A DNA stretch of 64,000 nucleotides from Ailanthus altissimus (taxonomy: Eukaryota > Streptophyta > Magnoliopsida > Sapindales > Simaroubaceae). The stretch covers positions 16,713,501-16,777,500 of the forward strand of contig OX327711.1 of assembly GCA_946807835.1 (NCBI GenBank), given 5' to 3'. Shown piece by piece: positions 12,178 to 50,881 of this stretch. The translations under genes were made by a program, and so were the position numbers. The notes beneath the pieces were generated by a model that worked only from the letters and a program-made list of their open reading frames with translations, was not told the origin of the DNA and made no database searches. How positions within the stretch are numbered: the first letter of the stretch is position 1; each line of letters starts with the position of its first letter.

Positions 12178-15100
12178 AAAATTTAATAGATAGGATAGGC
12201 AACCCAAGAGGGGATGTGAATTAGGTATTTAAAAATAATACACTTACTAATAATATAAATAAGTTAAAGTACAAGTAAATGCAGTAAATAAGATAGTATG
12301 GAAAGAGAAAGCTAACACTTGATGCTTACGTGGTTCATCTCTTATCTATGCTTACATCCATACTTTGAAGCTAACCGTGCTTGAAGATTCTACTAGTTCG
12401 GTCTATCTTTCAAAACCCTTTGATTAACTTTTCAGGTGTTAATCAAACCTTTACAAATTGGATTTTTTAGGTGTCACGCCCCAGACCCAAAAGATCTGAC
12501 ATACGACATCACTTACATTCATTCAATAAGATTTAAACATTCATTTCAATTTCTTTCAGAATTATAACAATTGAATTATGATTGGGACAATTAGTAAACC
12601 GGAGATACGCAAAGTTTTCTCAGAGATTAACACTCTACTACATCACCAGTAGCAACTTTGTTATCGGAAGCTCAGAATATATTCATTACAAATTTTTACT
12701 TAAAATCAATCCATAACCATACGTGGTGAAACTTAAACTAAATCCAACCACACATAATAAAATAATACATAAGTATTTATTCAATAGGGATGATCAAATA
12801 TCTTATCCCACGTGTCCCCAAATAAAACACTCAGCAACCTAGCAACTTAGGAAACCCAAGGAACAGCAGAAGCCTTGCCAAATCTGCTAAGCACACATGT
12901 ACCTTATTTACCTAAAATCACCATAAACTATAATGAGTATAAAACTCAGTAAGCATACTAATTTTTCATATATTATATATCAAATACAAATACATATATG
13001 TACACAATGCATATGTATAATATGCTGTGATCAATCAAAATCATAATCTTAACAAATCACATGTCATGTAAGCGCTTACACATTCTTTCAAAACATATTA
13101 CAGGAATACTATCACTCAACTACTACTTAGTAGGACTTACACATCACATATCACATAATGAGCCAAATGTCACTCGTAGGTGACATACCGTATGAGAGGA
13201 ATAGTACAAGTGAGGTTTAAATTACATATATATAATGCTCAAGCCCGAAGGTAAGAGCCAAACCCTCACCCTGATCATCGGTGAGTCCTCTCACATGCAC
13301 CAATACGCCACCACACGAATGTGATGACTCAATCTTCCTTTAGGTACTAATAGGATCCTCCCTACATACGAAACATATAACATATACCAATCCCAAAAGA
13401 AAAGCCACACATAAAGGCTCCACAAATCACATAAGATGCTTACTAAGTCAACAGTGAGTTCAAGCATCCTCAAAATACAAAATGTTTCTTATGGACATAT
13501 TACACTTCAAAGCTTTCTTTGTTAAATACATTTTATTTTAAAAGCTCACTTTCAAAAACACATGTATGTCCATGCTCAATGTCAATGCTCACATTCATAA
13601 ACATATGTCTTTCACATTTCATATCAAATACACTTTGATATAACATAAACATATTTCTAAGCACATTTACAAAATCATACATAGACAATTACTATACTTA
13701 TTGTGATTTCAGTAAAAGTCTAGTATACTTACCTCTTAGCACTTACAGCTACAAGGCTTAAATCTCCTTAACCTATCAATGGAGATCAATCCTTTCATAA
13801 GCCTCACAATTCACACAAAATACTTTAAATAGCTTACAAAACTATACACAATGCATTTATCACATCAAATTGGTCTAAATACTTAGTTTCTCAAAACTTG
13901 TCATTCTGACCACTTACACTTAACAAAATTTTCTAATACATCAAATGATGTCCAATTACTCCAAAATCAGAAGATATCATTCTTGACTCATATATCCTTT
14001 CTATATATAAATATTATAACAAAATTCCTACACAATCCATTCCATACACATCATCGAATCCAAACTACTAACCTGACAGGATCAAGATACTTATTGAACA
14101 GTATTCAATCTCCTAATTTTATAAAATCATATACTAACTCAAAAATAATAAAACTATCACAAAAATACTCTTGACACATATCTCAATCCATGATAAATAT
14201 TTTACTTCAAAATAACTGCCAAAAGTATTTTAAAACTATTTTATTCTATAGTTTTAAAAATCTGTTAATCAAATACTGCAATGAGCTGATACACTTTAAA
14301 AAATCATAACACTTCAACCGCATTGATCTAAATTCTTAATTCTGAGTATATTATATTAGACATATAAAATTATCATATTCTACAAATTTATAATTTTTAA
14401 AGATCATTCAGTAGGACAAAAATTATTTGTCACTGTATCATACTGTTTACTCAATAAATTTCTAAAATTTCAGGGTCATTTTGGTAAATTTACAAAAAAT
14501 TCAATTTCTAGAACTTTCAATCGATTTAAAGTCTCAGATGATCCTAAACATGTCTACTTTTATATAATCAAAATTCAAAGTCAGAATCGAATCACAACAA
14601 TTTATAAAATTACTGGATCAAGAGACTATCAAGCAAAAATTTCACAATTCATCATGATTTATCAAACTATCTTATAGATCATCATCAATTCTCATAAGAT
14701 CTTACGAAATACACATCAATTCCTCAATTACACAAATTTTTAGAAATCAAAACTTAAAGGAATTAACTTAATTAATACCAATAAATTGAGAAATAGGTGT
14801 GATATACCTCTTAAAATTTAAAATTCTAATTTCTTCTTCTTTTTCTTCTCTTTCTCTCCTATCTATTTCTCTCTTCTCTCTCTCTAAAGGGATAGCTCGA
14901 CCCAAAAATGAGCAAATTAGGGTTTCAAAAGTGTATTTTTATATTAAGCGGTAAATTTTTGGTATTTACGAATTTGCCCCTAAAACTTTTAAAGTATTAC
15001 AATTTGGTCCCTAAAATAAATTTAAAGTCTTACAAATAAACCCAATGCTAATAGTATGTCCTTAACCTATACAAACACTACTAATAACAATACATAAATC

Positions 15101-15758
15101 AAGTATCACCCACATACAAATAAAATACGTATATTTATATATATATATATAAATACTTATTCTTACCGGTTGTGGATACTGGTTACTATATCAGGTCCAA
15201 TCATATGCTAATTAGTTTTTCAAGTACTAATCAAACCCTCATAGTTTGTTTGCTTTATCGAATACTAACTAGACCCTTACAAAAATTGATTTTGGGTTCA
15301 ATTAAACCCTTATAATTTAAACTCTCTTAAAGAGTAGATACACAAATTTTAAAACAAATATGTATATTTCTTTCCTTTTCAAATGATACGAAGATTATAG
15401 AGTTCTTTTTTTGTCTAGTTGAACTTGAATGAAGCTTGTATTTATAGAGATGATGAAACCAGCCATTTTTAGCTGTTGCTACAGTATTATACCCGTTGTT
15501 ACCATTCTGCTATAATGATTTGATCATTACAATCGTTAATACAGTAACTAGTCATTGCACGATGATTTACTATTAAAGAATAGTGCTGTTGCTATAAGAC
15601 CTTACTATAGTACACAGTACAGTGACTAAAAGTTTTAAACTTTTGCATTTTTTCCCATTTTTTTTATAGTTTTCAAAACTTTGTGTTTTAGTCTATAAAC
15701 ACTGTTTTTATCTATTTTTTTTAAATCATCAAAATCTTCAAAGATAAATAGGCCAATA
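12178..15758 (-). repeat. LTR of Copia B (5' LTR), split by a solo LTR
   Basis: The parts 12178-12471 and 15196-15758 align end to end with 9257-10100. The break falls exactly where the solo LTR lies. Confidence 0.75.
12472..15190 (-). repeat. Solo LTR of the LOG-element family
   Basis: 2719 bp, from TGTCACGCCCCAGACCC to TACTATA, homologous throughout to the LTRs at 23590-26311 and 29732-32453 but clearly diverged. Flanked by TTAGG (12467-12471) and TCAGG (15191-15195), a 5-bp target duplication with one change. The empty site is preserved in the sister LTR near 9545. No internal region remains, so it arose by LTR-LTR recombination. Confidence 0.88.
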
Positions 15759-22790: not shown

Positions 22791-23589
22791 CAAGTGATTG
22801 AAAAATAGCTTTACGAAGTATTTTGCCTTTAAAATGCCAAAATCTAACTACCATCTTCATTTTTGGTTCACTTTTATAAAATTAGATCATCTAATAATTT
22901 TGCATCATCATTAGAATAATGGAAGGCGAATAAATTACTGACTTGAGTGTTTGACATATTTACAAGTCCGATTAATTAGAAAATTGTTGCTAATTAAGCA
23001 CAATATGCTCAAAATAAATTATTCTTATCAATTTTTTTTTTATAAACTTCAAAGTTAATAATGTGTGTATATATATCGTGCTGATTTATCTTAAAATGTG
23101 CTTATTATTTACATGTTTATGTTTATCTTATAATATATTTATTATTTAAATGCACTAACTCAAAAATTTGAGTGACTTGAAAATTTGGGGGACCCTTAAA
23201 TTAATAAGTTGAATTTATTTTTTGTTAAAAAATTATTAATTGAGACTTAACAAAATAAAAATAAGAGAGGAAAAAAGAACATTGGATATACAGTGGTTTA
23301 GCCTAATTCAGGCTTACATTCACTACGCTGAACTTGATGAGCTCATTTATAGATACGATTTAATAATCTTTTTATATAGCAGTAGCACAAGATGCCATGA
23401 CCATTACAATCTAAAATAAAATAAGAGAAAATGAAATAAAGTAGTTTGCGTAATGAGGAGCTCTCTTTTTCTTTCATTGTTGAGCCTCTTTTTTATAGGT
23501 GTTGTGGAGCTTAGTAATAGAGTTTTCTTAGGAAGATATTCATTATTAATTCCTTGATTGAATTAATGGAATAATTTTAAAGATGTAAT
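22791..23589. other. AT-rich DNA with LTR-like text, no gene
   Basis: About 23270-23580 resembles the 3' half of a Copia LTR on the minus strand (compare the GAACATTGG...GGCTTACATTCACTACGC stretch with 9395-9440), but no partner was found. The young LTR element inserted at 23589/32454, and its right-hand continuation resumes at 32459. Confidence 0.4.
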
Positions 23590-26311
23590 TGTCACGCCCC
23601 AGACCCAAAAGATCTGACACACGACATCACTTACATTCATTCAATAATACTTAAACATTCATTTTAATTTCTTTCAGAATTATAGCAATTGAATTATGAC
23701 TGGGACAATTAGTAAACCGGAGATACGCAGAGTTTTCTCAGAGATTAACACTCTACTACGTCACCAGTAGCAACTTTGTTACTGGAAGCCCAGAATATAT
23801 TCATTGTAAATTCTTACTTAAAATCAATCCATTATTATACTTGGTGAAACTTAAACTAAGTCCAACCACACACAATAAAATAATACATAGGTATTTATTC
23901 ACTAGGGACAAATCAAATATCTTATCCCACGTGTCCCCAAATGAAACACTTAGCAACCTAACAACTTAGGGAACCCAAGGAACAGCAGAAGCCTTGCCAA
24001 ATCCGCTAAGCACACATGTACCTTATTTACCTGAAATCACCATAAACTATAATGAGTATAAAACTCAGTAAGCATACTAGTTTTTCATATATCAAATACA
24101 AATACATATATGTACACAATGCATATGTATGATATGCTGTGATCAATCAAAATCATAATCTTATCAAATCACATATCATGTAAGCGCTTACACATTCTTT
24201 CAAAACACATAATAGGAATACCATCACTCAACTATTACTTAGTAGGACTTACATATCACATATCACATAATGAGCCAAATGTCACTCGTAGGTGACATAC
24301 CGTATGAGAGGAATAGTACAAGTGAGGTCTTGAAATTACACACATATAATGCTTATGCCCGAAGGTAAAAGCCAAACCCTCACCCTGATCATCGGTGAGT
24401 CCTCTCACATGCACCAATACGCCACCACACGAATGTGATGACTCACACTTCCTTTAGGTACCAATAGGATCCTCCCTACATACGGAACACATAACATATA
24501 CCAATCCCGAAGGAAAGGCCACACATAAAGGCTCCACAAATCACATAAAATGCCTACTAAGTTAACAGTGAGTTCAAGTACCCTCAAATCACAAAATATT
24601 TCTCATGGACATATTATACTTCAAAAGCTTTCTTTGTTAAACGCATCTTATTTTGGAAAGCTCACTTTCAAAAAACACATGTATGTCCATGCTCAATGTC
24701 AATGCTCACATTCATAAACATATATTCACATTTCATATCAAAATATACTTTGACATATCATAAACATATTCTTAACCCCATTTGCAAAATCATACAAAAC
24801 AATTATTATGTTTATTGTGATTCCAGTAGTAAGTCTAGTATACTTACCTCTTAGCACTTACAGCTACAAGGCTTAAATCTCCTTAACCTATCAATGGAGA
24901 TCAATCCTTTCATAAGCCTCACAATTCACACAAAATACTTTAAATAGCTTACAAAATTATACACAATGCATTTATCACATCAAATTGGTCTAAATATTTG
25001 GTTTCTCAAAACCTGTCATTCTGACCACTTACACTTAACAAAAATTTCTAATACATCAAATGATGTCCAATTACTCCAAAATCAGAATATATCATTCTTG
25101 ACTCATATATCCTTCTTATATATGAATATTATATCAGAATTCCTACACAATCCATTCCATACATACCATCGAATCCAAACTACTAACCTGACAAGATCAA
25201 GATACTTACTGAACAGTATTCAATCTCCCAATTTTATAAAATCATATACTAACTCAAAAATTATAAAACTACCACATAATTACTCTTGACACATATCTCA
25301 GTCCATGATAAATATTTGGCTTCCAAATAACTGCCAAAAGTATTTTAAAACTCTTTTATTTCATAACTTTAAAAATCTGTTAATCAAATACTACAATGAG
25401 CTGATACACTTTAGAAATTCATAACACTTCAACCACATTGATCCAAATTCTCAATTCCGAGTATATCATATTAGACATATAACATTATCATATTTCCACA
25501 AATTCATAATTTTTAAAGATCATTCAGCAGGTCAAAAATTATTTTCCACTGTATCATACTGTTTACACAGGAAATTTCCAGAATTCCAGGGTCATTTTGG
25601 TAAATTCACTACAAATTCAATTTCCGAGATTTTCAGTCGATTCAAAGTCTCAGATGATCCTAAACATGTCTAATTTCATATACTCAAAATTCAAAACCAG
25701 AATCGAATCACAACAATTTATAAAATTCCTAAATCAAGAGGTTATCCAGCAGAAATTCCATAATTCATCATGATTTATCAAACTATCTTATAGATCATCA
25801 TCAATTCTCACAACATCAAACGAAATACACATCAAATCCTTAATTATACATATTTCCAGAAATCAAAACTTAAAGAAATTAACTTAATTAACACCAATAA
25901 ATTGATAATTAGTTGTGATATACCTCTAAAGATCCAAAATTCTCATTTTCTTCTTCATTTTCTTCTTCTTCTTCTCTTTCTCTCTCCTTTATTTCTCTAT
26001 TCTCTCTCTAAAAATGGGTAGCTCGACCAAAATGAGAGAATTAGGGTTTTTAAAAGTGTATTTTTATACTAAGTGGTTAAGTTTTGGTATTTACGAATTC
26101 ACCCCCAAAACTTTCAAAGTATAACAATTTGGTCCCTAAAATAATTCCAAAGTCTTGCAAATAAACCCAATACTAATAGTATATCCTTAACCTATAAAAA
26201 CACTACTAATAACAATATATAAATCAAGGATCACCCACATACAAATAAAATACGTATATTTATATATATAAATATACATATTCTTACCGGTTATGGATAC
26301 TGGTTACTACA
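23590..26311 (-). repeat. LTR (3' LTR of the LOG element)
   Basis: Starts TGTCACGCCCC and ends TGGTTACTACA. The small reading frames inside (24405-24587 minus, 24966-25289 plus) recur unchanged in the other LTR and have no sign of being genes. Confidence 0.95.
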
Positions 26312-26325
26312 ATTCTCCCCTCCTT
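26312..26325 (-). promoter_or_regulatory. Polypurine tract of the LOG element
   Basis: The complement reads AAGGAGGGGAGAAT, directly against the TGTAGTAACC start of the 3' LTR. The preceding GAGGACGAAATTC is the usual tail of chromovirus pol genes. Confidence 0.85.
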
Positions 26326-26678
26326 ATAAGAATTTCGTCCTCGAAATTCATAACTTAAGCACATAGATGTAGAATATCCATACTAATCTCTTAAATAAAA
26401 TTCTTAACTCCTCTGAAAATTTTAATCCATTCAACATATACTCATACGTCATAATATCATTCACTACCTTGATATCATTCAAAAAAAAATGTAGCATTTC
26501 TACGCAACTAAGTTGTCATTCAAATCAGAATATTGAAGGTATTATCTTAAATGATCAATGATTCTTAAACTATAGATCTCAACATTATATCTCTTACTCT
26601 AACTCTTTAAAAAAAAAAATAGTCCACCTTATTGGACATCATTTTCTCATTGAGACTGACATGTCTGCTTTTTTCTAA

Positions 26679-27243
26679 TATGCTCAGTTTCAAACAGAAA
26701 AGATTGCACTAGCACAATTACTGCGATGGCAAATATGGTTTTTTAACTATTCCTTTAACGTCATCCACAGAAAAGGAAAGAACAAAACGATTATTGATTT
26801 TCTTTTACAAAACTCTATAAATAGCCTAAACCTCATAATCACTTTTCTAGCAATAAAGAAAACCAACCCTCATACCATCTTCATAATGAATCCTATTATC
26901 ATAACTCCTCATGTTCCTTTTACTCCACCACAACTTCCAGACCTAATCAGAACCAGAACACTCCATTCCCGTGCCAAAGAATTCATCAGACACTATGCCA
27001 TCTTGGCAGTCCAAGAACACGGCCTCACAGTTCTTGGTGGCCCTTCGTTCAACTTGGAATACCCTTTCTTTCACCTGCACTATTTTTTTTTTTCCATTTT
27101 CCCAATGGTCCAAATCTGTCATTTACTTGTTATGGTACCTGTTGGATCTGTATACAATCGCCATAGATTTTCCATTACTTAGAACTCTCCAAAAATTAGA
27201 AAAATGTGATGAAGATCATCCAGCCCTGATATTTCTCCAATGA
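26679..27243 (+). pseudogene. Pararetrovirus-like RNase H tail and start of C-terminal extension, broken
   Basis: An open frame from 26679 (after TAA 26676-26678) to 27182 begins with the end of a retroid RNase H. The LLRWQIWFFNYSFNVIH segment followed by RKGKN and DFL fits the RW..WF..Y.F.V.H..GK.N..D..L pattern, and is closer to caulimovirids than to Gypsy elements, which usually have RRW.E.L..Y. Near the T-run at about 27083-27092 the coherent text moves to another frame (26971-27243), which ends at a TGA (27241-27243). After that stop the same frame continues into the 27283-28050 reading frame. It is therefore a relic of the 3' part of a polyprotein with one frameshift and one stop. Upstream RT, protease and coat regions are missing. 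It lies antisense to the retrotransposon. Confidence 0.6.
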
Positions 27244-27282
27244 TTTTACCCAAAGACATGGTGGATAACTAAATTTCAATAC

Positions 27283-28050
27283 ATGATTGCAAACAACACA
27301 AATGCTGCAGTCCCCAGACAACATCTTTGGTCAGTCTTACTTCTCCAACGGAAGGGTATGATTATTTCAGATCACGAGATTCATTATTACCCCACTGTTA
27401 AGGATTATTTCACATTTACCCTTTCACTAAAGGGATCAATTAAGCTCTGGCCTGAAGAAGTAATTCAGCGAAAGAGAGAACTTGAAAGAATTCTTGCTCA
27501 GGAAAATCAAATAATTCCTCCGTCTGTTTGGATCTCCCCAGAAGATGCTGCGCCTTGGGAACAGGTTGAAGCTGACTTTGCAGAAGACCTGAATTTTGCC
27601 AATATACTCAAATTCCAACAAAGACAAAAATATCATCTTTCACATCTCAGAAATACAAATTACTCTACCCACCATCACCATATCCCAAACATGACTTATT
27701 ATGCCAGATACAGACAAGCAATGGATAACCTTCACCAATGGCCTCAGCTAGCTGTCCTGACAGAACCTACCCAATCTCAGCCAGTTGTCCCGACAGAACC
27801 TGACCAACGCCAACCCAATCTTGACTTATCCCTCTTTCAAGACTCACAACATTATCTAACCGACACCCAAATCCAAGAGGAAGCCAGCACATCCCTCATC
27901 CAGACCAGCTCACCTGCAGAAGATCAAGATATGGTAGACCCACCTTCCACTCAGCCAGAGCCCTCATTCAATGTATGGGAACAACAACTCCATAAGTTTC
28001 TCTCTCACGGATACGACACAGATGAAAGCGACCAGGGAGACTCATTTTAA
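27283..28050 (+). CDS. Uncharacterised 255-aa ORF, C-terminal part of the pararetroviral polyprotein
   Basis: First ATG 27283, stop TAA 28048-28050. It is in the same frame as the segment ending at TGA 27241, so it is probably the downstream part of one longer protein rather than an independent gene; translation from its own ATG is possible but unproven. The N-terminal 75 residues look globular (WSVLLLQRKG, HYYPTVKDYF). The middle is charged with a His cluster (HHHH, about 130). From about 155 on it is Pro/Gln/Thr/Ser-rich and disordered-looking, with a near-repeat of the VLTEPTQSQP and VPTEPDQRQP kind, and it ends acidic (DTDESDQGD). No membrane segment or signal peptide. I do not recognise a family. 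An intact 768-bp frame in a young element suggests little decay since capture. Confidence 0.5.
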   Translation: MIANNTNAAVPRQHLWSVLLLQRKGMIISDHEIHYYPTVKDYFTFTLSLKGSIKLWPEEVIQRKRELERILAQENQIIPPSVWISPEDAAPWEQVEADFAEDLNFANILKFQQRQKYHLSHLRNTNYSTHHHHIPNMTYYARYRQAMDNLHQWPQLAVLTEPTQSQPVVPTEPDQRQPNLDLSLFQDSQHYLTDTQIQEEASTSLIQTSSPAEDQDMVDPPSTQPEPSFNVWEQQLHKFLSHGYDTDESDQGDSF

Positions 28051-28642
28051 CCTACATTGTTGTTTCTGTTTTTCACAGAAACTAGATCCGTGTTGTTCTA
28101 TCACATCAAAGAGAGACTGACTACTACTTTATCTTTATGTCAAGTGTGCTTTATTTTTCTTTATGTCTGCTTTTAATCTATCGGCCAAAAATCAATGTTA
28201 AGACCACAAAAATTCTTATAATTAATAAAGTTAATTTGGCCTCATGTCCAAAGTCCAGTTGGTAGCTTAAAAAGTCTTCAAGTCATATATGCATTGTCGG
28301 CCATTAGTGCCAAAACGGCAAAGTCCCTACATCCATAAAATAGGCATTTATTAACTTTTCTTAATCATCTTACCTAACTCATCACGCTTCCGACACAATT
28401 TTATTACACTTACATATCAACAAATATTTATTCAAAATTTTGCGGCCTATTGTCCCTTATAGAATAATAAAGTAAAACTCATTCTTTTCTTTTTACCTCA
28501 CAAGAATTGAGAAAAACGTATATACTTGAACATACTTACACATATGCTCCACAGCTATTATCAATTTGTTTCTCTATAAATACATTATTATTCCATCCTT
28601 ATACAAACTCGAAAACATTCAAAGATTAGGGTGGGCATAACA
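28051..28642 (+). promoter_or_regulatory. Intergenic promoter region of the LOG gene
   Basis: 592 bp with no reading frame. A TATA box (TCTATAAATA, 28574-28583) lies about 60 bp before the ATG, a spacing that allows a leader of roughly 30-35 nt; an A-rich start region ACAAACTCGAAAACATTCAAAG follows. The layout (RNase H gene, promoter, next gene) resembles the caulimovirid arrangement in which a second promoter lies between the polymerase gene and the last gene. Confidence 0.55.
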
Positions 28643-29296
28643 ATGGAGGAAACCTCAGCTCGTCGATTCACAAAAATTTGTGTCTTTTGTGGATCTAACC
28701 CTGGGAATACTGAAGAGTTTACAAAAGTTGCAGAAAATCTTGGTAAGGTATTAGCTGAGCGAAATATACATCTAGTATATGGAGGAGGTAACCGTGGGTT
28801 AATGGGGTCTGTAGCAAAAGCAGCACACAATAATGGTAGTCGCGTTTTGGGTATCATTCCAAAACCTCTAGCTATTGAAAATATTGTAGGAAAAACAGTT
28901 GGGGATGAGTTACAAGTCTCATCTATGCACGAACGAATGGCTCAAATGCTTGGGCATGCAAATGCTTTCATAGCTCTACCAGGAGGTTTCGGGACCTTGG
29001 AAGAAATTTTTCAAATTGTCTCATGGGCACAATTACAAATCCATCAAAAACCCATTGGTTTGTTAAATGTTAATGGTTTTTACGACGGGTTGATATCTTT
29101 TCTTGACTATGCAGCGGGAACACAATTCATCCCACTTATAGCACGACGGATTCTTATTTCTGCTCCAACTGTTGATCAACTGATTGATCAATTGCAGTCT
29201 TTTATTCCTCTGTCTAATCCAACATTGCATCAGTTAGATTGGTCTACTCATGACAGTCAGAAGAAGCGCAAAATAGACTTAAATCTCACTCCGTAG
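28643..29296 (+). CDS. LOG-like: Intronless LOG-family cytokinin riboside 5'-monophosphate phosphoribohydrolase with C-terminal EAR motif
   Basis: 217 codons, intact. LOG enzymes release active cytokinin bases and ribose 5-phosphate from cytokinin nucleotides in one step. Diagnostic segments: KICVFCGSNPG (11-21), LVYGGGNRGLMG (44-55), GIIPKPL (70-76), MHERM (95-99), ALPGGFGTLEE (111-121; family consensus PGGxGTxxE), SWAQL (127-131), KPIGLLNVNGFYDGL (136-150). Length matches plant LOGs (about 210-225). The usual Lys of MHxRK is Met99. The C-terminus adds KKRK (207-210) and DLNLTP (212-217), an exact DLNxxP EAR repression motif. The ATG at 28643 is chosen because it gives the normal N-terminus and follows the TATA box; upstream in-frame text from GTG 28631 is not needed. 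Plant LOG genes known to me have several introns, so this is a retrocopy, a viral passenger or an intronless paralogue. It lies antisense inside a young retrotransposon. Confidence 0.9.
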   Translation: MEETSARRFTKICVFCGSNPGNTEEFTKVAENLGKVLAERNIHLVYGGGNRGLMGSVAKAAHNNGSRVLGIIPKPLAIENIVGKTVGDELQVSSMHERMAQMLGHANAFIALPGGFGTLEEIFQIVSWAQLQIHQKPIGLLNVNGFYDGLISFLDYAAGTQFIPLIARRILISAPTVDQLIDQLQSFIPLSNPTLHQLDWSTHDSQKKRKIDLNLTP

Positions 29297-29342
29297 CCTC
29301 TACTGTATTTTTGTTGCTACTATTGTTGTTGTTTTCCTTTTC

Positions 29343-29348
29343 AATAAA
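29343..29348 (+). terminator. Poly(A) signal of the LOG gene
   Basis: AATAAA, 47 bp after the stop codon, followed by GT/T-rich DNA (GTTGTTTCAATTGATGTC). With the TATA box it makes a self-contained transcription unit of about 0.75 kb. Confidence 0.6.
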
Positions 29349-29710
29349 AGTTGTTTCAATTGATGTCTTCAATACTCTATTTCTCTACATTTTGTCATTG
29401 AGAAAATTATCTCAATTTGCTCTACGACATGCAAATTATCATTATAAGATATTCAACATCCTTCTTACTAAGCATATTAGTCATAACTTAAAACAAATCT
29501 AAATGGTAACATTAAAAACCACAAGGTACCATTATCCACAACAACAACAGTCTTAGCAGCTCTTGCATAATGTGTCATCTTCACAAAATCACACAAAATT
29601 TAAGGAATATGTCAAACTTTTACACAACAAAGCTACAAATACAATCCTAAGGATTTGGCATCTGCTCGGTTCCCTTGACTAGACACATAAAGTCTACAGA
29701 ATCATATCTT

Positions 29711-29723
29711 AGCTCTGATACCA
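29711..29723 (-). promoter_or_regulatory. Primer binding site (initiator Met-tRNA)
   Basis: The complement is TGGTATCAGAGCT, eight bases inside the 5' LTR. The leader after it (to about 29510) still looks like a Gypsy 5' leader on the minus strand. Confidence 0.88.
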
Positions 29724-29731
29724 ATAAAAGC

Positions 29732-32453
29732 TGTCACGCCCCAGACCCAAAAGATCTGACACACGACATCACTTACATTCATTCAATAATACTTAAACAT
29801 TCATTTTAATTTCTTTCAGAATTATAGCAATTGAATTATGACTGGGACAATTAGTAAACCGGAGATACGCAGAGTTTTCTCAGAGATTAACACTCTACTA
29901 CGTCACCAGTAGCAACTTTGTTACTGGAAGCCCAGAATATATTCATTGTAAATTCTTACTTAAAATCAATCCATTATTATACTTGGTGAAACTTAAACTA
30001 AGTCCAACCACACACAATAAAATAATACATAGGTATTTATTCACTAGGGACAAATCAAATATCTTATCCCACGTGTCCCCAAATGAAACACTTAGCAACC
30101 TAACAACTTAGGGAACCCAAGGAACAGCAGAAGCCTTGCCAAATCCGCTAAGCACACATGTACCTTATTTACCTGAAATCACCATAAACTATAATGAGTA
30201 TAAAACTCAGTAAGCATACTAGTTTTTCATATATCAAATACAAATACATATATGTACACAATGCATATGTATGATATGCTGTGATCAATCAAAATCATAA
30301 TCTTATCAAATCACATATCATGTAAGCGCTTACACATTCTTTCAAAACACATAATAGGAATACCATCACTCAACTATTACTTAGTAGGACTTACATATCA
30401 CATATCACATAATGAGCCAAATGTCACTCGTAGGTGACATACCGTATGAGAGGAATAGTACAAGTGAGGTCTTGAAATTACACACATATAATGCTTATGC
30501 CCGAAGGTAAAAGCCAAACCCTCACCCTGATCATCGGTGAGTCCTCTCACATGCACCAATACGCCACCACACGAATGTGATGACTCACACTTCCTTTAGG
30601 TACCAATAGGATCCTCCCTACATACGGAACACATAACATATACCAATCCCGAAGGAAAGGCCACACATAAAGGCTCCACAAATCACATAAAATGCCTACT
30701 AAGTTAACAGTGAGTTCAAGTACCCTCAAATCACAAAATATTTCTCATGGACATATTACACTTCAAAAGCTTTCTTTGTTAAACGCATCTTATTTTGGAA
30801 AGCTCACTTTCAAAAAACACATGTATGTCCATGCTCAATGTCAATGCTCACATTCATAAACATATATTCACATTTCATATCAAAATATACTTTGACATAT
30901 CATAAACATATTCTTAACCCCATTTGCAAAATCATACAAAACAATTATTATGTTTATTGTGATTCCAGTAGTAAGTCTAGTATACTTACCTCTTAGCACT
31001 TACAGCTACAAGGCTTAAATCTCCTTAACCTATCAATGGAGATCAATCCTTTCATAAGCCTCACAATTCACACAAAATACTTTAAATAGCTTACAAAATT
31101 ATACACAATGCATTTATCACATCAAATTGGTCTAAATATTTGGTTTCTCAAAACCTGTCATTCTGACCACTTACACTTAACAAAAATTTCTAATACATCA
31201 AATGATGTCCAATTACTCCAAAATCAGAATATATCATTCTTGACTCATATATCCTTCTTATATATGAATATTATATCAGAATTCCTACACAATCCATTCC
31301 ATACATACCATCGAATCCAAACTACTAACCTGACAAGATCAAGATACTTACTGAACAGTATTCAATCTCCCAATTTTATAAAATCATATACTAACTCAAA
31401 AATTATAAAACTACCACATAATTACTCTTGACACATATCTCAGTCCATGATAAATATTTGGCTTCCAAATAACTGCCAAAAGTATTTTAAAACTCTTTTA
31501 TTTCATAACTTTAAAAATCTGTTAATCAAATACTACAATGAGCTGATACACTTTAGAAATTCATAACACTTCAACCACATTGATCCAAATTCTCAATTCC
31601 GAGTATATCATATTAGACATATAACATTATCATATTTCCACAAATTCATAATTTTTAAAGATCATTCAGCAGGTCAAAAATTATTTTCCACTGTATCATA
31701 CTGTTTACACAGGAAATTTCCAGAATTCCAGGGTCATTTTGGTAAATTCACTACAAATTCAATTTCCGAGATTTTCAGTCGATTCAAAGTCTCAGATGAT
31801 CCTAAACATGTCTAATTTCATATACTCAAAATTCAAAACCAGAATCGAATCACAACAATTTATAAAATTCCTAAATCAAGAGGTTATCCAGCAGAAATTC
31901 CATAATTCATCATGATTTATCAAACTATCTTATAGATCATCATCAATTCTCACAACATCAAACGAAATACACATCAAATCCTTAATTATACATATTTCCA
32001 GAAATCAAAACTTAAAGAAATTAACTTAATTAACACCAATAAATTGATAATTAGTTGTGATATACCTCTAAAGATCCAAAATTCTCATTTTCTTCTTCAT
32101 TTTCTTCTTCTTCTTCTCTTTCTCTCTCCTTTATTTCTCTATTCTCTCTCTAAAAATGGGTAGCTCGACCAAAATGAGAGAATTAGGGTTTTTAAAAGTG
32201 TATTTTTATACTAAGTGGTTAAGTTTTGGTATTTACGAATTCACCCCCAAAACTTTCAAAGTATAACAATTTGGTCCCTAAAATAATTCCAAAGTCTTGC
32301 AAATAAACCCAATACTAATAGTATATCCTTAACCTATAAAAACACTACTAATAACAATATATAAATCAAGGATCACCCACATACAAATAAAATACGTATA
32401 TTTATATATATAAATATACATATTCTTACCGGTTATGGATACTGGTTACTACA
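29732..32453 (-). repeat. LTR (5' LTR of the LOG element)
   Basis: Same length and one mismatch with the partner LTR. On the minus strand it would drive transcription into the interior, antisense to the LOG gene. Confidence 0.95.
32203..32210 (-). promoter_or_regulatory. Probable LTR TATA box
   Basis: The complement reads AGTATAAAAATACAC, followed downstream by CCCTAATTCTCTC and a GA-rich leader. The same motif is in the other LTR (26061-26068) and, slightly changed, in the solo LTR. It would direct the element's minus-strand transcript. Confidence 0.45.
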
Positions 32454-32586
32454 GTAATTATCCTTTAATTAGGGTTAGGGTTGATTTCAAATCTAAGGAA
32501 GCATATATTATTCTATATCTTTGTCTAAAATGGAAACTATTGTGAATGAAAAAAAAAAACGGATTAGAATGATATCATTGAAAGTG

Positions 32587-35250
32587 TGCAAATTTTCTAG
32601 AGTACATGTATGTGGTATGTGTTTATTACAATAAAATTTACGCATCTTCATATATAAATTAACGCATTGGAACTGGAAATCTAATTTCTAAGTACAACAA
32701 ACACATTTAAAATTTAAGTTTCATTACTATAATAAAAATAAATATTAAGAATCACCTATCAAGCATTTGAAAATTTACTGAACCGGAGTCCACCACGAAG
32801 CGCACTCACTGACAATTCTAAGATACAATTGGGGTGAGCTTGGATTGCTAGAATAACTGCTTCAAATTTTAGCAATGATGTTTAACTCTTAAACACCAAA
32901 TGGCTAACTCTTTAACCATTTCTTAAACTCTTTAAACTTAGGATTATTAGTTATACTTTTTAACTAATTACATTAGTTTCTAAGCAATTAAATTTGTTCT
33001 TGTTAATTTAACTCTTGAATCAATAAAAAACAAATGCTTAATTACTCACTCATGACCGACTATGAGCTTGGATGAGGAAGAAGATGAACAATGTTAATAG
33101 AGAGCAACATTTGCTCAAAAACACTAATCTCTCTCTTCCTCTCTTAGTTGGCCGAACCATTCATCCATAGGAAAGATGAACAATTCTCTAACAATTGAAA
33201 AAATTACTCTCTCCCCCACACTTATAAAAAAATGGCCGAATCCTACACCCTTAAAAATAAAATCAATTCATTTTTATATTAATAAATTTATTTTCCTTCA
33301 AATAATGGCCCAACATGTACAAGAGCCATGCCTTAAGCCATTCACATGTTTCCCCTTTGTTTTCACAAAAAAAAATAAACATGTGTTAATTTAAATATTA
33401 TAGCATTTGTTGACTAAGCAAAACACTAAAACAAATGGGAAACATGTGTTAATTTAAATATTATAGCATTGGTTTACTAAGCAAAATACTTTTGCTTTCA
33501 TTCCTTTTGATGTTTGGTCGGCCACCTCTTGAGCAAAAATAAAACATTTTCATTTTTTGTTGATTTGTTTATTTTCCTTCTTTATTAGTCAAAAACATCA
33601 TGCCCTTATTAATCATGCATGTGTTTTTCTTTTATTTATTTAATAACAAATAAACATGTACCATTCATTAATATAATGTTTGTTTAAACTTAATAAAAAA
33701 TCAAATAAAGCAAAAATATTTTTTGTTTATTTAATATATATTGCTTGTTCAACAATCAATGGTATTTTGATAATTGCAAAGTCAAACAATGAATGACCTA
33801 CAATATTTCACATGTTATTATCTCATTGGTCAACAACTATTGTTAATCAATTAATGTATTTAACTCTTAAGTCTTGACACGTGTACATCCTGAGGAAACT
33901 AGAAATAAATATCCCGGTTTGTTAAAATTTACTAGATTGAACTGTTTAATCTGGTACGCTGCCTCAATGCATAACTAGTACACTTCATATTATGTGACTC
34001 CCTAGGTCCACACCCGATTTGTCAAATGAAATTGTTCAATGAGTCCGTACCCCATGTATATGTCACAGATATTACAAATCAACGCGTTAGGCCATACAAG
34101 CTGAGGTTATAATATATTCGTATAATTCTTCAATCACTTATATTCTGAATGAACGGAGACATAGATCATTACCGTCAAATCTTTACATGTTCATCCGTGA
34201 ACTTATCTCTAAATTTGTATTTCGATAAATAATATACGTAAAGACTTTTGCGATATTGTTTAACCCTACGGTAAACTCTTTTTCAAGTTTATACTTATGG
34301 CCACAAGACTTTCTCAAATACAATCTTGGAGCATCAGGATATACAACTTACCTATGTAAGCTGACGGATCCCATATCTATGCACACTGAACTCCATGAGC
34401 ATTGAACCATACTCAGCGATAAGTAGTGGTCAGATCATAAAATGTCTCTGACATACATTGAACCAAAAATGGTGGATCACTCACAAGTCCATCATAGCGC
34501 TCCGGTCAAAGGACCACAAATACTACTCAAACTCGAGAAAACCTACCATTTATGGCTTTATGGGATGTTTATTAGAGGTCCTCAGAGTCTGTTCGGTACT
34601 TAATCCTCAATGAATACTCGTATGCATATATGAGTTTCTAGTAAGCTCATGGTCAGTTAAGAACAACCATCTATATCATACAGATATAGCATACACTAAT
34701 CTATATATAAAAGGAATTCACCTATAGACCCGCATCAACGAAAATAGATTAGGAACATAGTGTTTGAGAACATACTTACATAATGACATTTTCTAGTATA
34801 TATTACAACTCTTTGCAACTGTATCATTACTAGTATACTATTAAGTCTTTTTTCTACTATAGACGAGGCTCTAACTCTTGAGATATTACTGACTCTTATA
34901 ACTTGCTAACTCTTAGCAGTACTAACTCTTAACATTTATAACTCTTAGCATTAGTCTAAACTCCTTTAGATCAGATCCGAACTCCATCAAATCATACAAT
35001 GTCTGTAGCGTTACAAGCATGATATCATTTATTATAGAATTAATGATTTAATATGAAATTTTATTGTATAAATATTAAATAATTAATATTTATATAATAT
35101 TGAAATGACGCGTAAGCACCAATTTTAATAAACTCCCACTTGTTCTAGTACTATTTGTATTGATATCTCATACCAATACCATTTAAAAATTTAATCTTGT
35201 CCCCTTGTGGTAAATTACTTCCCTCATGGCAAATTACTTCATGGACATTA
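32587..35250 (-). mobile_element. Copia LTR (about 2.54 kb) with a short internal stub
   Basis: 32587-35130 matches 50882-53451 throughout (CCGGAGTCCACCACGAAGCGCACTCA; CTCCCTAGGTCCACACCCGATTTGTC; AAGCTGACGGATCCCATATCTATGC; GACGCGTAAGCACCAA). On the minus strand it starts just after purine tract AAGTGGGAGTT (35131-35141), and about 120 bp of the adjoining pol end remains before unrelated DNA. It is thus a 3' LTR of a truncated element, not a clean solo LTR. It contains clusters of TAACTCTTA words (32880-33010, 34870-34950). Confidence 0.7.
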
Positions 35251-37938: not shown

Positions 37939-40244
37939 CTATTTGAAAGGATTTTCTAGTAGAACAACAGCATTGGGAGATGCTCTTGGAAAACTTAAAA
38001 GCAATTGGTTCACTTCAAGAAAATCCTGTACTTTCTGCTTAATCCTCATTACATCCCAGGATCCTGCTAAATGTTCACCTTTTGCATGAATAATCATCTT
38101 CTCTAGCACTTTCGCATTCTCGAGTAGAAACTCCATTAGTGAGCAAAAGGTTTTTCCTGCAGGGCTTGGAGGAAATCCAGTGACCTCTACAATCTTAAGG
38201 TGAAGAGGTAAACATCTGTAAATTCTCTCTGTTGATGCACAGGGCTTCTCTCCACCGAATATGTCATGTATGGTGCGCTGAACCTGCAAATACAGATTCA
38301 ATCAATCAAACTGACTTTTACATATCAATTCATTTGATATTGATATTACTCATGGAACACTTTATATATTATACAAAAACGTAATCAGTTTAAGTTCAAT
38401 GTATACTCACTGAACAACGAGGAAAACAAATATAAAGGATTCTAATATGCACCCACCTCGCTGTTGCTGGAGGACATCAGGTTCACAGTTAATTTCTCCA
38501 GCTCCGGTGAACTTTCCAGCAGACTTGCAATCATGGGCAGGTATTTCTCGTGAATGCTTGAGTCAATTGTTAAACTCTTAAGTTTGCACAATATCGGAGA
38601 TTTCTCCTCCCATTTTGATAGAATCTAATTAGCACGTTAAGAAAGACAAAAAAAAAGAGAGAAAATAATATTATTAATAATAAAATACATTAGCAGGAAA
38701 CTCCAAATAGTAAAGAAGCTTTGGTGGTTGTGTTGCGATTTGAAAATGCTAATTTTAATTGATTTAAAGTTCATGAGCATCTTTTTTTCTTAAAAACCAA
38801 TTTTTAAGAGCGACTTCTACCCATAAATTTAGCAAGAACTACCTTATTATCCTTCAAACCAGTATACTTATTTTGGCCTTACCAAGTGCGCAATTGAATT
38901 GCCACAAAATTTAATCAATTGGATTAATTTCTAACTCCTGTGATTTTAAAATGCAATCTTATAAAGTTTAACAATGGATTTTTTTTTTGTAAGAAATTAC
39001 TTTTAAACAAAATCTAACTGTTGACCTTATAACGTTAACATATTTACCATTAAAGATGATATTAGGTTAACTTCTTAAATATTTCTCCAACATTTTTTTT
39101 TTCTTTTTGTTCAACATTCCATGACTTAATAGTAAAAGTAAACAAAGTCATAAATTCAGGACTTGAAATAAGGAAAACGTACCTGAAGGCACCAATTCCC
39201 AATAGTAAGTTTCTGAACATGGCGAAGTTTATCAAGCAATTCCTTCAACATGTAGCAATGCTTTTGATCGAAACTTATCCCATATTTCTGAAGGAGCGTA
39301 TAACTGATATTAGCTTCCACTACAGATGACATATCAATCACCTTGTATTTTCTTCTGTACATATTCCCGAGTAAGCTAAAAGAACTAATAGTAGGAGCCG
39401 ATATCTCTACAATCACGGGCTTATAATTTCTTCCAAGGAAAGACGCATAACGATCAGAAGCATTATCTATCACTAGTTCTTTCAAATTCGGAGAGCTAAT
39501 AATAAGTTGGTTTATCCCATGGCAGCATTGCAATCTCAAGTATTCAAGCATGGGACTACCCGATAAAATTTTTGCAATCGTTTCATTAGTCGAAGTCGCG
39601 TAGGCAATGGATAAAACCTTGAGTTTGCTCCAAGAAACAACCCCAATTTGCTGATAACTACAGAATACTGTATTTAATGTCCTTAATGTCGAACTGGAGA
39701 ATATATGTGGAGGCAAACGATAGGGTCGAATTGATGCTTTTTCAGTATCTCCAAAATCAAGACTGAGTTCCTCCACATGGCGTCTCGTGGCGAAATGGAT
39801 CCACTCGTCTATCTGCGAACTTAAACAATTATCATATCTGAAACCAACGGCGAACTTTTCAAGTTTAGAACCAGTGTAAAGTCTCAGGGTTTTGTCGATA
39901 TTAGAGGCCCATTCACGGTGGTGCTTGTAGTAGAGGGGGTACCGGGGGAAGCAGAATTTTAGGCTCGGAACCGCAGCCCAAACGTTTCGCCATCTCTTCG
40001 ACAAGACGCTGGTTTTTAGGATATTTTCAGCGTCTAAAAAAGACAGGATGTATTGGATGATCGGATCAGGTAATGCGCTAATACGATCTTGGTCTCCACA
40101 GTCGGTTTTACTCTTCTTCGACGATGGTGAGTACCATTCCAGAGGCCCTTCGTCGAGAATCTCGGAAAAATCGTGACCTATCGGATAACCTGAGATCGTT
40201 GCCAATACCGAATCGTCACTGGCACTGCTCTCCTGCTCCTCCAT
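37939..40244 (-). CDS. F-box/LRR/FBD protein, three exons
   Basis: Exons 40244-39183, 38624-38457 and 38283-37939, all phase 0, give 1575 bp (524 residues). The F-box is at residues 53-95 (DRISALPDPIIQYILSFL, SKRWRNVW). Leucine-rich repeat text follows (HVEELSLDFG, LPPHIFSSSTLRTLN, LSGSPMLEYLRL, SPNLKELVID), then PELEKLTVNL (exon 2) and an FBD domain (exon 3: TERIYRCLPLHLKIVEV, FLLENAKVLEKMIIHAKG) ending in VVLLENPFK. The family acts as substrate adaptors in SCF ubiquitin ligases; the substrate is unknown. N-terminal residues 1-50 are disordered with an SKKSK basic patch. No break seen. The same exon layout (exon 2 near 168 bp) recurs in the gene at 62789-64000. Confidence 0.9.
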
Positions 40245-43520: not shown

Positions 43521-45799
43521 ACTCGTGGAAGAATACAGGGTAGAGAAGTGAGATCTTCTGAAAATATACTATTTGAAGAAATAGGAGATCGAACACCACC
43601 CACGACGGTAAAGTTGTTGCCGGGGATATAAGACATATGGGGGTATACATGTGCAAGTGTGTCTTTTGCCTATATAAGTATCATATACGAATTTTTACGC
43701 AGCAAAAGCGTATAAACATGCAATAAACACATTAAATAAATATATTAATCACATTAATATATTAAAAAGCTTGAGAACTCACCTCAACGTGTAACGTTAT
43801 ACACGTATATCTCTGGAGTCCGTATGGAGACCAACTCTAGGGCAGTTCTAGTCACCAACACAATGGGCTTGGTGAGCTAGAACAACAGCCCCATATCCAG
43901 CACGAGATTAACTCTCAATACCCAAAATAGACGGTGTGTGTTTTTATCATTTTCTCCAAAAAGATAAGAAATAGAGAATTTAAAGTAATCCACCATTGCT
44001 TCAATTGCAACCATAAAGAAAAATGAAACAATTTCATTTTTTCGTTTTTTCTTTTTTTTCTTCTTTCTTCTTCCTCGGTTCCATTTCTCTATTTCTTTCT
44101 TTTCCTCCATTTCATTTTTGCTTCTCATTCTCTCGACAAAACTCACAACATATACTCATTCACCAATTTTCTCATCTCTCTCTTTATATATATCTAATAT
44201 ATATATATATATTAAAATATTAATATAATATATATTATAATAATAATAAAATAATACTAATGGGTGTCAACTATTTGGCACCCAAAATATAATGTTATTA
44301 TATATATAATATAATATAATAATATATTATATAATAAAATAAGAGAGATATTTTGATTATTTAACCATTAAAAAATCAAAGTATGAAATGACTATTTTGC
44401 CTCTCATGAATAGTTATCAAGTTTACCCCTTAGTGGGTCTCACCAAACGCGCACTTGGATAAACTCAACCAAAGGTCCATAATGTGTCACGTGTCATTAT
44501 ACAATTAATAAATAACAATAATTGACTAATTATTGTATTTAATATTTAAATACATATACGCACGCATTCCTGTAGTAGTGCTGAATATTGCTAGATTAAA
44601 AACTTTAATCTGGCACGCTGCCCCAGTGCACAACGAGTACACTCCATATCGCGGGACTCCCTAGGTCCTATGCCCGATTTGTTAAATGGAACTATTTCAT
44701 GAGTTCGTGAGCAATGCCTCACGCAAATATCACGGATATACAAATCAGCGCGTTGAACTATACAAGCTAAGATTACAACGCATACGTATAGTCCTTCTGT
44801 CATGATATCCTGGATGTCCGAGGATATAGATTATCACCGTCAAATCCCCTTATGCTCATCCATATCTTATCTTCAGACTTGTATCTCATAGAACAATATG
44901 TGCAAAAAAATTTGCCATATTGTTCTACCCTGGCAGAACTCTTTTTCGGGATAATTGTTTGTGGCCACAAGATTTTTCGTGATACAGTCTCGAAACATCT
45001 AGATATCTAACTCCCTATGCGAGCTGACGGATCCCATATATGTATGCACTAGACTCCATAAGTATTGAACCATACCCAGCGGTCACACCATGAAAGGTTT
45101 GTGACATGCGTGGAACCAAAGTATGGTTGATCACTTACAAGCCCACCGTGGCACTCAGGTCAAATGATCACGTATACTACTCAACTGGAGAGGACCTTCC
45201 ATTGATGGCTTACATAGGGTGTCTATCGAAGGCCCTCGTGAGTCTGTCCCATATCCAGTCTTAATTGGATACCCATATGTCAATACGAGCTCCAAACTCA
45301 CAGTTGGTTAGGAACGACCATCTATACCTTATAGGTACGACATATGTTGATCCATGTAAAAAGGTATCCACCGACAGACCCGCATTAGTAGAAATATATC
45401 AGGGATAATTATTCGAGAACATACTTGCGCAATTTGTATTTTCTGGCACCCGATTGCAACTCTTGTAACTATGCAGTTACTAGTATATTCTCAGGTTTAT
45501 ATCTCATTATAGACAATACTCCAACTCTTGAATCTACTGAGTATTATAAATAGCTAACCCTTAACTGTGCTAATATTTAACAATTATATGTCTCAGCATG
45601 GCTAACTATGAGCCATTATCTAAACTCCTTTAGATCTGATCTGAACTCCTTCAGATCATACAATGTCTATAACGTTACATGCATAGTACCATATAAATGA
45701 GTATTAGCTATTTAATGGGAATGTACACTTCTATAAATACACAAATATATGTACATTCAGGGATGACACGTAAGCACCGACCCTAACAACCTCCTACTT

Positions 45800-49265: not shown

Positions 49266-50476
49266 GCCGACGTGACTCGTCTAACACCATATTGACAAGA
49301 CGGATCAGAATAATATATTATCTCATAATGTAATATTCTTCAATCTGATTAAGAGAGATTTTTGTATCTAGGTCTCTACTTTCTTAGGAATAGTGATTCT
49401 CAACTAATTAATTTTCTATATAAGCACAATTAACCCCCACCAATAAGGCTCCTATTGTGGTTACCAACACAGGAAAATTAATCCTGGTTTATAATGCAGA
49501 CCGATAACTCTTTATCATTGCATCTCATAAACTCCGATTTATAATGTAGACTGATAACTTTTATCATTACATCTAATAAATCTATACATGCAAAATTAAT
49601 TTTGAAACACTGTTCAAAATCATTGTAGCTATTAACAATAAAAATACCGTTCATTTTGAAACATAAAACTTTTTGAGATACAGTTTTGAAGTATCTAGAT
49701 ATTTAACTCCCTATGCGAGCTGACGGATCCCATATCTGTATGCATTGAACTTTATAAGCATCGAACCATACCCAGTGGTCACACCATGAAAGGTCTATGA
49801 CATGCATGGAACTAAAGTATGGTGGATCACTTATAAAGCCCACAGTGGCACTCAGGTCAAAGGACCACATATGTTACTTAACTCGAGAGGACCCTTCATT
49901 GACGGCTTACATAGGGTGTCTATCGAAAACCCTCGTGAATCTGTCTTATATCCAGTCCTAACTGGATACCCATATGTCAATACGAGCTCCAAGCTCACAG
50001 TCGGTTAGGAACGACCAGCTATACCCTATAGGTACGACATATGCTGATCTATGTAAAACGGTATCCACTGATAGACCCGCATCGATAGAAATATATCAGG
50101 GACAATTATTCGAGAACATACTTGCGCAACTTACATTTCCTAGCACCCAATTATAAGTATGCAGTTACTAGTATATTCCCAGGTTTATGTCCTATTACAG
50201 ACAAGGCTCCAACTCTTAGATCTACTGAGTATTATAAACAGCTAACACTTAATTGTGCTAACATTTAGCAATTATATGTCTCAGTGTGGCTAACTATGAG
50301 CCCTTATCTAAACTCCTTTAGATCTGATCTGAACTCCTTCAGATCATACAATGTCTATAACGTTACATGCATAGTACCATATAAATGAGTATTAGTGATT
50401 TAATGAGAATATACACTTATATAAATACACAAGTATATGTACATTCAAGGATGGCACATAAGTACCGACCCTAACA

Positions 50477-50881
50477 AAAGTATCCTTGGACAAACTACCT
50501 ATATGAGAAAAGTTAAAGAGAAATAACTAAAGGACCTTCCCATTAGATGACGAGAATCTAAAGGGATAATTTCATCCCCCTTACTATCTCTTTGAAGATT
50601 ATATTTGAAGCTATAAAAAATAGAAATATGCTTAAAGAGTTGAATATCGCCATAAGAACATTCTTAAAATAACGTGACAAGACTACATAATCAATGAGTG
50701 TCACCATCTGCTAGAGCAAGTAGACCAGGTGATTAGAAATGGTTATCTAAATGAGTTCAGAGCTGATCAAGAAGGTAACAAACCATGACTTTAGATCATG
50801 AGCTCTAGAAAATAGAGCATCCATGAATAATATACCTTTACTTTATTTTTAAAAGTTTTTATAAGACTGTCAAAGTAAAAG
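50477..50881 (+). other. Tat internal remnant between nested Copias
   Basis: About 400 bp with no open frame, between Copia C and the next LTR. Probably Tat interior (plus-strand), by position only. Confidence 0.4.

Follow-up and report, generated by a model that had tools for sequence, protein, structure and literature searches.

The window, a 64,000-nt stretch of Ailanthus altissimus contig OX327711.1 (host genome, 939 Mb), contains a very young member of an LTR retrotransposon family that is non-autonomous and present in high copy number. The family carries an antisense LOG gene; probably, its ends are of chromovirus type, LOG serves it as an accessory gene and it is moved in trans. LOG is under purifying selection inside the element.

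Structure of the element and its LOG gene

The element was classified as a non-autonomous LTR retrotransposon according to its paired TG..CA LTRs, 5-bp duplications, primer binding site (PBS), polypurine tract (PPT) and lack of gag-pol (Table 1). ORF and domain searches of its interior yielded no gag-pol ORF of 80 residues or more. The single mismatch between the LTRs is T at 24617 and C at 30759. The PBS, TGGTATCAGAGCTAAG, starts 8 nt past the right LTR on the minus strand and is presumably of the initiator-Met type. These data confirmed the original prediction as to 2722-bp LTRs with one mismatch, perfect GTAAT duplications, a minus-strand PBS and PPT, the absence of gag-pol and an intact 217-codon LOG frame.

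Table 1. Positions of features of the element in the window.
Feature	Position	Strand	Basis
Left target-site duplication, GTAAT	23585..23589	.	Flank comparison
3' LTR, 2722 bp (element reads on minus strand)	23590..26311	-	LTR alignment
PPT AAGGAGGGGAGAAT	26312..26325	-	Precedes left LTR on minus strand; identical in C22 gag-pol element
Open stretch, by eye like the RNase H end of a reverse-transcribing virus	26703..26885	+	Eye only, no Pfam support
ORF-A region, interrupted in window copy	26886..28050	+	ORF list, copy comparison
TATA box TATAAATA of LOG unit	28575..28582	+	Conservation among copies
LOG frame, intact, 217 codons, C-terminus KKRKIDLNLTP	28643..29296	+	ORF, Pfam, genome matches
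AATAAA poly(A) signal of LOG unit	29343..29348	+	Conservation among copies
PBS TGGTATCAGAGC	29712..29723	-	Common to C22 element
5' LTR, 2722 bp (element reads on minus strand)	29732..32453	-	LTR alignment
Right target-site duplication, GTAAT	32454..32458	.	Flank comparison

LOG lies near the 5' LTR, antisense to the element. The frame matched Pfam PF03641 (E 1.3e-38) and PDB entry 2a33 (E 2e-62), and contains PGGFGTLEE, corresponding to the LOG signature motif PGGxGTxxE. By domain and motif, the predicted product is a LOG-type cytokinin riboside monophosphate phosphoribohydrolase. LOG also has a conserved predicted promoter and AATAAA of its own: the 12-bp TATA block diverged by 0.2–1.0% among copies, as against 3.4–8.6% in the remaining non-coding blocks, the core promoter and AATAAA left aside.

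The interior includes a second frame, ORF-A, which has 397 codons in other copies and of which the last 255 (27283–28050) are open in the window copy. Stops were absent from 94 of 104 scored genomic matches of P0121, an ORF-A relative. ORF-A contained no Pfam domain, its 98-residue start matched no phage record, and a scan of IMG/VR with P0121 revealed no relative. The predicted fold was uninformative (pLDDT 35). The stretch preceding ORF-A had been considered a pararetrovirus piece for its by-eye likeness to RNase H, an idea dropped as no search backed it.

Family copies, a candidate gag-pol partner and a second LOG-bearing type

In a genome search, all 150 scored LOG matches, the window's own included, were full length at 97–100% identity. 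They were spread over contigs C1–C32 and 147 were free of stops. Copy numbers are lower bounds, giving at least 150 LOG copies. Each of 30 fetched copies was flanked by element interior on one side and an element LTR on the other, which bore out the expectation that the same cargo would occur at other sites. LTRs of the family elsewhere in the genome were 95–100% identical, and LOG was present in 14 of 15 elements that were chosen by their LTRs and had an interior. LTR pairs diverged by 0–0.0008 in four of five elements measured and by 0.0073 in the fifth. Perfect 5-bp duplications flanked three elements and all 12 solo LTRs checked. The near-identical copies and the duplications at independent sites support the claim of a mobile LOG gene. 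Because copies occur at many sites with duplications of their own, an assembly collapse or an old single-copy locus, named at the outset as grounds for refutation, was ruled out. The LOG frame was broken in 4 of 12 fully read LTR-chosen copies, so single copies decay freely.

The fifteenth LTR-chosen element (C22) has the same PBS and PPT as the window family and encodes domains of gag (PF03732), reverse transcriptase (PF00078), RNase H (PF17919) and integrase (PF17921 and PF00665). It is known from five pieces that together cover ∼3.05 kb of a 4.97-kb interior, and its lack of LOG and its pol content refer to these pieces. A chromodomain-like stretch follows the clear integrase in a cut piece, scoring 24.1 bits (E 3.5e-5) against a Pfam cutoff of 25.1. 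By sequence comparison, the window family thus has ends (LTR, PBS and PPT) that match those of C22, which is probably a chromovirus-type Ty3/gypsy element and a plausible mobilising partner. Because these ends are common to C22 and the LOG family, we infer mobilisation in trans, in line with the trans-acting proteins of the original prediction.

The LOG cassette, from promoter to poly(A) signal, also occurs in a second Ty3/gypsy element type, with a protein identity of 74%; the block common to both types spans about 28572–29419 in the window. In the one second-type element read in this respect, LOG is in sense, behind an integrase and a viral-NABP-like ORF. The integrase is of the Ty3/gypsy type (PF00665, 1e-17). 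By its motifs, this second type may belong to the Athila lineage. It also appears to be high-copy, with 134 similar matches, three of which were read. A scan of IMG/VR with the NABP-like ORF found no relative.

Selection on LOG and possible roles

Among LTR-chosen LOG frames, omega was 0.25 for 8 copies (2dlnL 21.0) and 0.31 for 11 (2dlnL 16.4), and omega = 1 was rejected. The LOGs of the window and of the second type differed by a dN of 0.15 and a dS of 0.50–0.56. Many LOGs of other plant families, several of these LOGs multi-copy, shared 57–66% protein identity with the window LOG.

According to a tree built without a bacterial outgroup and with one LOG8-type sequence in its canonical set, 40 element-type LOGs split from 13 canonical ones (SH-aLRT 100), the element LOGs forming a clade distinct from the LOG3 and LOG8 types usual in plants. 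The host's own LOGs are exon-broken: 13 of 16 matches ended at query residue 48–51, as at an intron. The separate clade, the separate host exons and the cassette in a second retrotransposon type do not support the suggestion that the element captured a host gene in a rare and fresh event, and a recently captured host gene was rejected. A bacterial or plastid origin was likewise rejected, as the closest named relatives are plant LOGs. A LOG scan of IMG/VR found no relative.

An EAR motif is LxLxL or DLNxxP and binds TOPLESS. An LxLxL (EAR-like) tail was present in 98 of 120 listed element-type relatives versus none of 120 LOG3-type LOGs; it was missing by pattern from the other 22 listed relatives, whole early branches among them. 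The tail of the window LOG resembles an EAR motif with a basic, NLS-like run, although such short motifs also arise by chance.

At slightly less than even odds, a LOG-type enzyme re-tooled by a basic run plus an EAR-like tail has long been an accessory gene of plant LTR retrotransposons, its promoter-to-poly(A) cassette being passed between unlike lineages, and is selected since manipulating cytokinin or host transcription raises element transmission. In the main explanation, which is probable, proteins of a C22-type element would copy and insert the LOG element in trans, and LOG would be retained for a benefit to the element, itself a conjecture. The most likely benefit would be raised active cytokinin, or a nuclear action, in cells transcribing the element. 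The outcome would be more dividing or germ-line-forming cells with new element copies.

A possible but rather unlikely alternative is that LOG persists owing to a function in the nucleus unrelated to hormones: with its basic run and EAR-like tail it would recruit TOPLESS-type co-repressors, or titrate them, and thereby dampen genes for silencing or defence, with catalysis perhaps incidental. The distribution of the tail is consistent with such a role, as is the viral-NABP-like ORF adjoining the second-type LOG; viral NABP-type proteins can suppress silencing. In addition, the products of some antisense retrotransposon ORFs are described as nuclear in PMC7264820. However, PGGxGTxEE is retained in 100 of 120 listed relatives, and the EAR and NLS readings are motif resemblances. 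It is very improbable, and already disfavoured, that LOG is a passenger that is intact since its copies are young and stem from few intact sources: near-identical LTR pairs and broken frames would fit this, but the rejection of omega = 1, the excess of dS over dN between the two types and the many LOGs of other plant families argue against it. Very improbably, the antisense transcript rather than the protein is selected, pairing with element genomic RNA to tune silencing, as its orientation, promoter-like block and the mechanism discussed for other antisense ORFs in PMC7264820 would allow, but selection acts on amino acids and LOG is in sense in the second-type element.

A complete hormone-type enzyme is preserved by selection within a family of at least 150 LOG copies, its cassette being found in a second type as well. 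Therefore, whether retrotransposons spread by manipulating the hormone signalling of plants becomes a testable question. If the long-standing accessory gene reading is true, a mobile element would be steering its host's growth hormone. As a caution, LOG genes counted from the gene annotation of a plant can in fact be copies of an element.

Comparison with known elements

Large retrotransposon derivatives (LARDs) have long LTRs, a PBS and a PPT, lack gag-pol and are moved in trans, and their interior is described as non-coding. The window family is similar in its long LTRs, PBS, PPT and lack of gag-pol, but keeps a selected LOG and a second frame and so differs from a LARD. Two Athila-like elements with similarity to LOGL4 were reportedly described by Steinbauerova et al. 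(2011), a study cited in PMC9289625. In Citrus and Populus, LTR retrotransposons that contain a LOG (YgdH) domain are described (PMC9289625), and there too LOG is additional to the other domains of Ty3/gypsy elements. With its integrase followed by a sense LOG, the second type reported here resembles that kind. By contrast, the window family lacks gag-pol, its ends are probably of chromovirus type and its LOG is antisense with its own promoter. Section 12 of PMC9289625 makes no mention of LOG selection, a C-terminal tail or exchange between lineages, and literature searches found no published account of the antisense arrangement, the cassette common to two types, the tail or LOG selection.

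Conserved antisense ORFs within LTR elements include gene23 of Grande, which has its own promoter, and those of RIRE2 and Retand (TRP28), as described in PMC7264820 and PMC11963269. As described there, these additional ORFs lie downstream of pol, ahead of the 3' LTR, and the proteins that most of them encode have no known function, whereas the window LOG is near the 5' LTR and belongs to a recognised hormone-enzyme family. Bs1 and Rider/SUN are similarly plant LTR elements with a host-type gene, acquired by transduction (PMC13317346; Bs1 also PMC7264820). Genes so transduced are described as occurring in one or few copies (PMC7264820), unlike LOG with its high copy number and relatives across plant families. 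Large orchid Gypsy elements with an AlkB (RNA demethylase) domain, described in PMC9289625, are another lineage of LTR elements in which an enzyme domain is fixed; by contrast, the enzyme reported here is of a phytohormone type and its element is non-autonomous.

The LOG element and its genomic family

The window element carries its LOG frame antisense to itself, between paired LTRs (see table). The LTRs, GTAAT duplications and minus-strand PBS and PPT of the original prediction were borne out by the coordinates read. A frame search likewise upheld its claim of an interior with a 217-codon LOG frame and without gag-pol: no gag-pol ORF was found in the interior of the window element, and the LOG frame matched PF03641 (E 1.3e-38) and PDB 2a33 (At2g37210; E 2e-62).

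Coordinates of features in the window
Feature	Position	Strand	Description
LTR pair	23590-26311 and 29732-32453	element reads on minus	2722 bp each, one mismatch
Target duplications	flanking element on both sides		GTAAT
PBS	29712-29723	minus
PPT	26312-26325	minus
LOG frame	28643-29296	plus, antisense to element	217 codons
ORF-A	26886-28050		last 255 codons open
Older solo LTR, same family	12472-15188		91% identical to the element's LTRs
Two related frames	39156-40244 and 63155-63766	minus	~71% DNA identity; presumably F-box/FBD-type
Dispersed repeats	33764-35122, 44588-45831, 49662-50483, 52069-53459		0.8-1.4 kb, 70-88% identity

Contig C29, one of 37 in a 939-Mb plant genome, contains the window. 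All 150 scored genomic matches to the LOG protein spanned residues 1-217 at 97-100% identity and 147 lacked an internal stop, giving a copy number of at least 150 (6210 candidates at first look). In the best-scoring 30 of these matches (L021-L050), each copy had LOG flanked by the element's interior on one side and its LTR on the other. A search with the LTR, which provided a sample independent of LOG, yielded 40 scored LTRs among 5270 candidates, comprising 12 pairs and 16 singles. Thirteen singles were solo, with no interior in the flanks read, and three had interior; together with the pairs, these therefore represent 15 interior-bearing elements. LOG was present in 14 of the 15. Among the 12 fully read LOGs, eight were intact, one was frameshifted (L009) and three had one stop (L018, L051 and L055); those of L058 and L062, partly read, had no internal stop in the part covered.

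Perfect 5-bp target duplications flanked three elements (GTAAT, GCATT and CCAAG) and all 12 solo LTRs checked, which were the 13 of the sample except L054. Duplications were unreadable at two more pairs, L006/L007 and L016/L020 (one divergent LTR edge, one tandem array). Five LTR pairs had internal divergences of 0.0004, 0.0004, 0.0008, 0 and 0.0073, and four of these pairs lay 2-4% away from the window LTR. Low divergence within pairs despite this distance indicates that several diverged lineages of the family have been active recently.

L006/L007 and other LTRs matched the window LTR only from query base 57; their outer 56 bp differ, so LTR edges of at least two types occur in the family. 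LOG copies also occurred in pairs ~6.4-6.7 kb apart on C5, C13, C21, C25 and other contigs, as expected for tandem LTR-interior-LTR-interior-LTR arrays.

The LOG tail and constraint on the interior genes

In a codon model, a set of eight LOG frames selected through their LTRs (without the frameshifted L009, and with stops masked in three) yielded an omega of 0.25; fixing omega at 1 with the same kappa was worse by 2dlnL 21.0. A set of 11 frames, enlarged by L059, L060 and L063 but not by the incompletely read L058 and L062, gave 0.31 (2dlnL 16.4). The dN/dS ratio was 0.168 for 19 pairs with dS >0.05 and 0.225 for 36 closer pairs. Larger sets of 28 and 22 distinct frames gave omegas of 0.11 and 0.09, which are biased because most frames were picked by protein score.

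In a 38-copy alignment, a 12-bp TATA block was diverged by 0.2-1.0% and positions 28501-28570 by about 2%, as compared with 4.9-6.9% farther upstream, 6.4-8.6% in the 5' leader and 3.4-5.6% beyond the end of the frame. Of the 38 copies, 35 retained AATAAA and at least 36 retained TATAAATA. The conservation of the TATA block and AATAAA, together with the low omega, makes LOG look like a transcription unit kept through rounds of transposition.

ORF-A, of 397 codons in many element copies, had no Pfam match. Its sole database match at E 0.001 or better, P0121 (397 aa), was 92% identical over 255 residues and had 104 scored genomic matches, all full length and 94 stop-free. An omega of 0.64 (2dlnL 8.6) for 27 distinct copies, mostly picked by LOG score, suggests weak constraint.

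Among 7871 database relatives of LOG, the best 120 were mostly 57-66% identical to it. By our count, Reevesia pubescens accounted for 39 of these 120 clusters; other sources included Xanthoceras, Paulownia, Populus and Diplodiscus. The element location of other plants' LOGs is taken from print, for Citrus and Populus only. A quick tree without bacterial outgroup split 40 element-type rows (the window and 39 of the 120) from 13 canonical rows, one of them LOG8-type, with an SH-aLRT of 100. A terminal [LI]xLx[LT] tail occurred in 98 of the 120 element-type proteins versus none of 120 LOG3-type proteins selected by likeness to LOG3, and followed a basic run in 93 of the 98. Two early branches, Xanthoceras and P0016 with P0031, lacked the tail. 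The window tail, IDLNLTP, matches this looser pattern as well as the DLNxxP form, not strict LxLxL. Candidate roles of LOG for the element are hormone activation and nuclear action of the tail.

Related elements in the same genome

The fifteenth interior-bearing element, on C22, has LTRs 96% identical to those of the window over the 2353 bp matched. Five unjoined pieces (L061 and L064-L067) cover about 3.05 of its 4.97-kb interior and encode, in the LTR-sense direction, gag with a CCHC knuckle, RT-RNase H and integrase; a chromodomain-like stretch scored 24.1 bits, below the cutoff of 25.1. The coding frame is open throughout L061, L065 and L066, and its region starts and ends in L064 and L067. 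In the part of the interior read, gag occupies the position corresponding to LOG. By our count, C22 and the window match at 57 of 60 nt in the PBS region and 58 of 58 in the PPT region. The matching ends and the gag and pol domains make trans-mobilisation of the LOG element by a C22-type element plausible.

A genome search with the C-terminal piece of a canonical LOG gave 150 scored rows. Sixteen, at 69-92% identity, are the host's own LOGs: 13 end at residue 48-51, exon-like, and one has two stops. The other 134 were 41-45% identical, and the three of them read (L068-L070), from which the copy number of this second type is extrapolated, were all another element-type LOG. Two copies were intact (217 aa, 74% identical to the window LOG) and the third frameshifted. 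Between the window LOG and the intact copies, dN was 0.15 and dS 0.50-0.56 (ratio 0.27-0.31). DNA similarity of ~80% ran from the TATA box to slightly beyond the stop codon, with an additional short block reaching 29419; the flanks read at L068, the one copy whose surroundings were read, had no match to the window. Upstream of the L068 LOG and in the same direction were two frames, one for an integrase (PF00665, 1e-17) and one matching PF05515 Viral_NABP at E 1.9e-7 (31.7 bits; cutoff 23). Read as L072/L073 on C29, the Viral_NABP ORF sits between integrase and the second-type LOG in a Ty3/gypsy element and is possibly a silencing-suppressor-like accessory gene. By its motifs, the L068 integrase looks Athila-like. 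The abstract of Steinbauerova et al. 2011 reportedly names Athila-like elements. Similarity from TATA to past the stop amid unlike flanks indicates that two unlike element types share one LOG cassette, antisense in one and sense in the other.

Comparison with reported elements

The window element is genuine: a non-autonomous retrotransposon, high in copy number and active in the recent past, whose LOG gene is under selection. According to PMC9289625, two Citrus species have LTR consensuses with a LOG (YgdH) domain and, once the paper's filter is removed, so does Populus, in agreement with Steinbauerova et al. 2011. Passages on antisense ORFs in PMC7264820 and PMC11963269 contain no mention of cytokinin, and those of a 2026 gene-capture review (PMC13317346) mention neither cytokinin nor LONELY GUY. 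In a search mostly outside the subscription literature, we found no published report of an antisense LOG or of one in a chromovirus-type context, nor of the LOG tail or selection on element LOGs. That LTR elements can contain LOG was already known in broad terms; the variant described here and its evolutionary behaviour look new.
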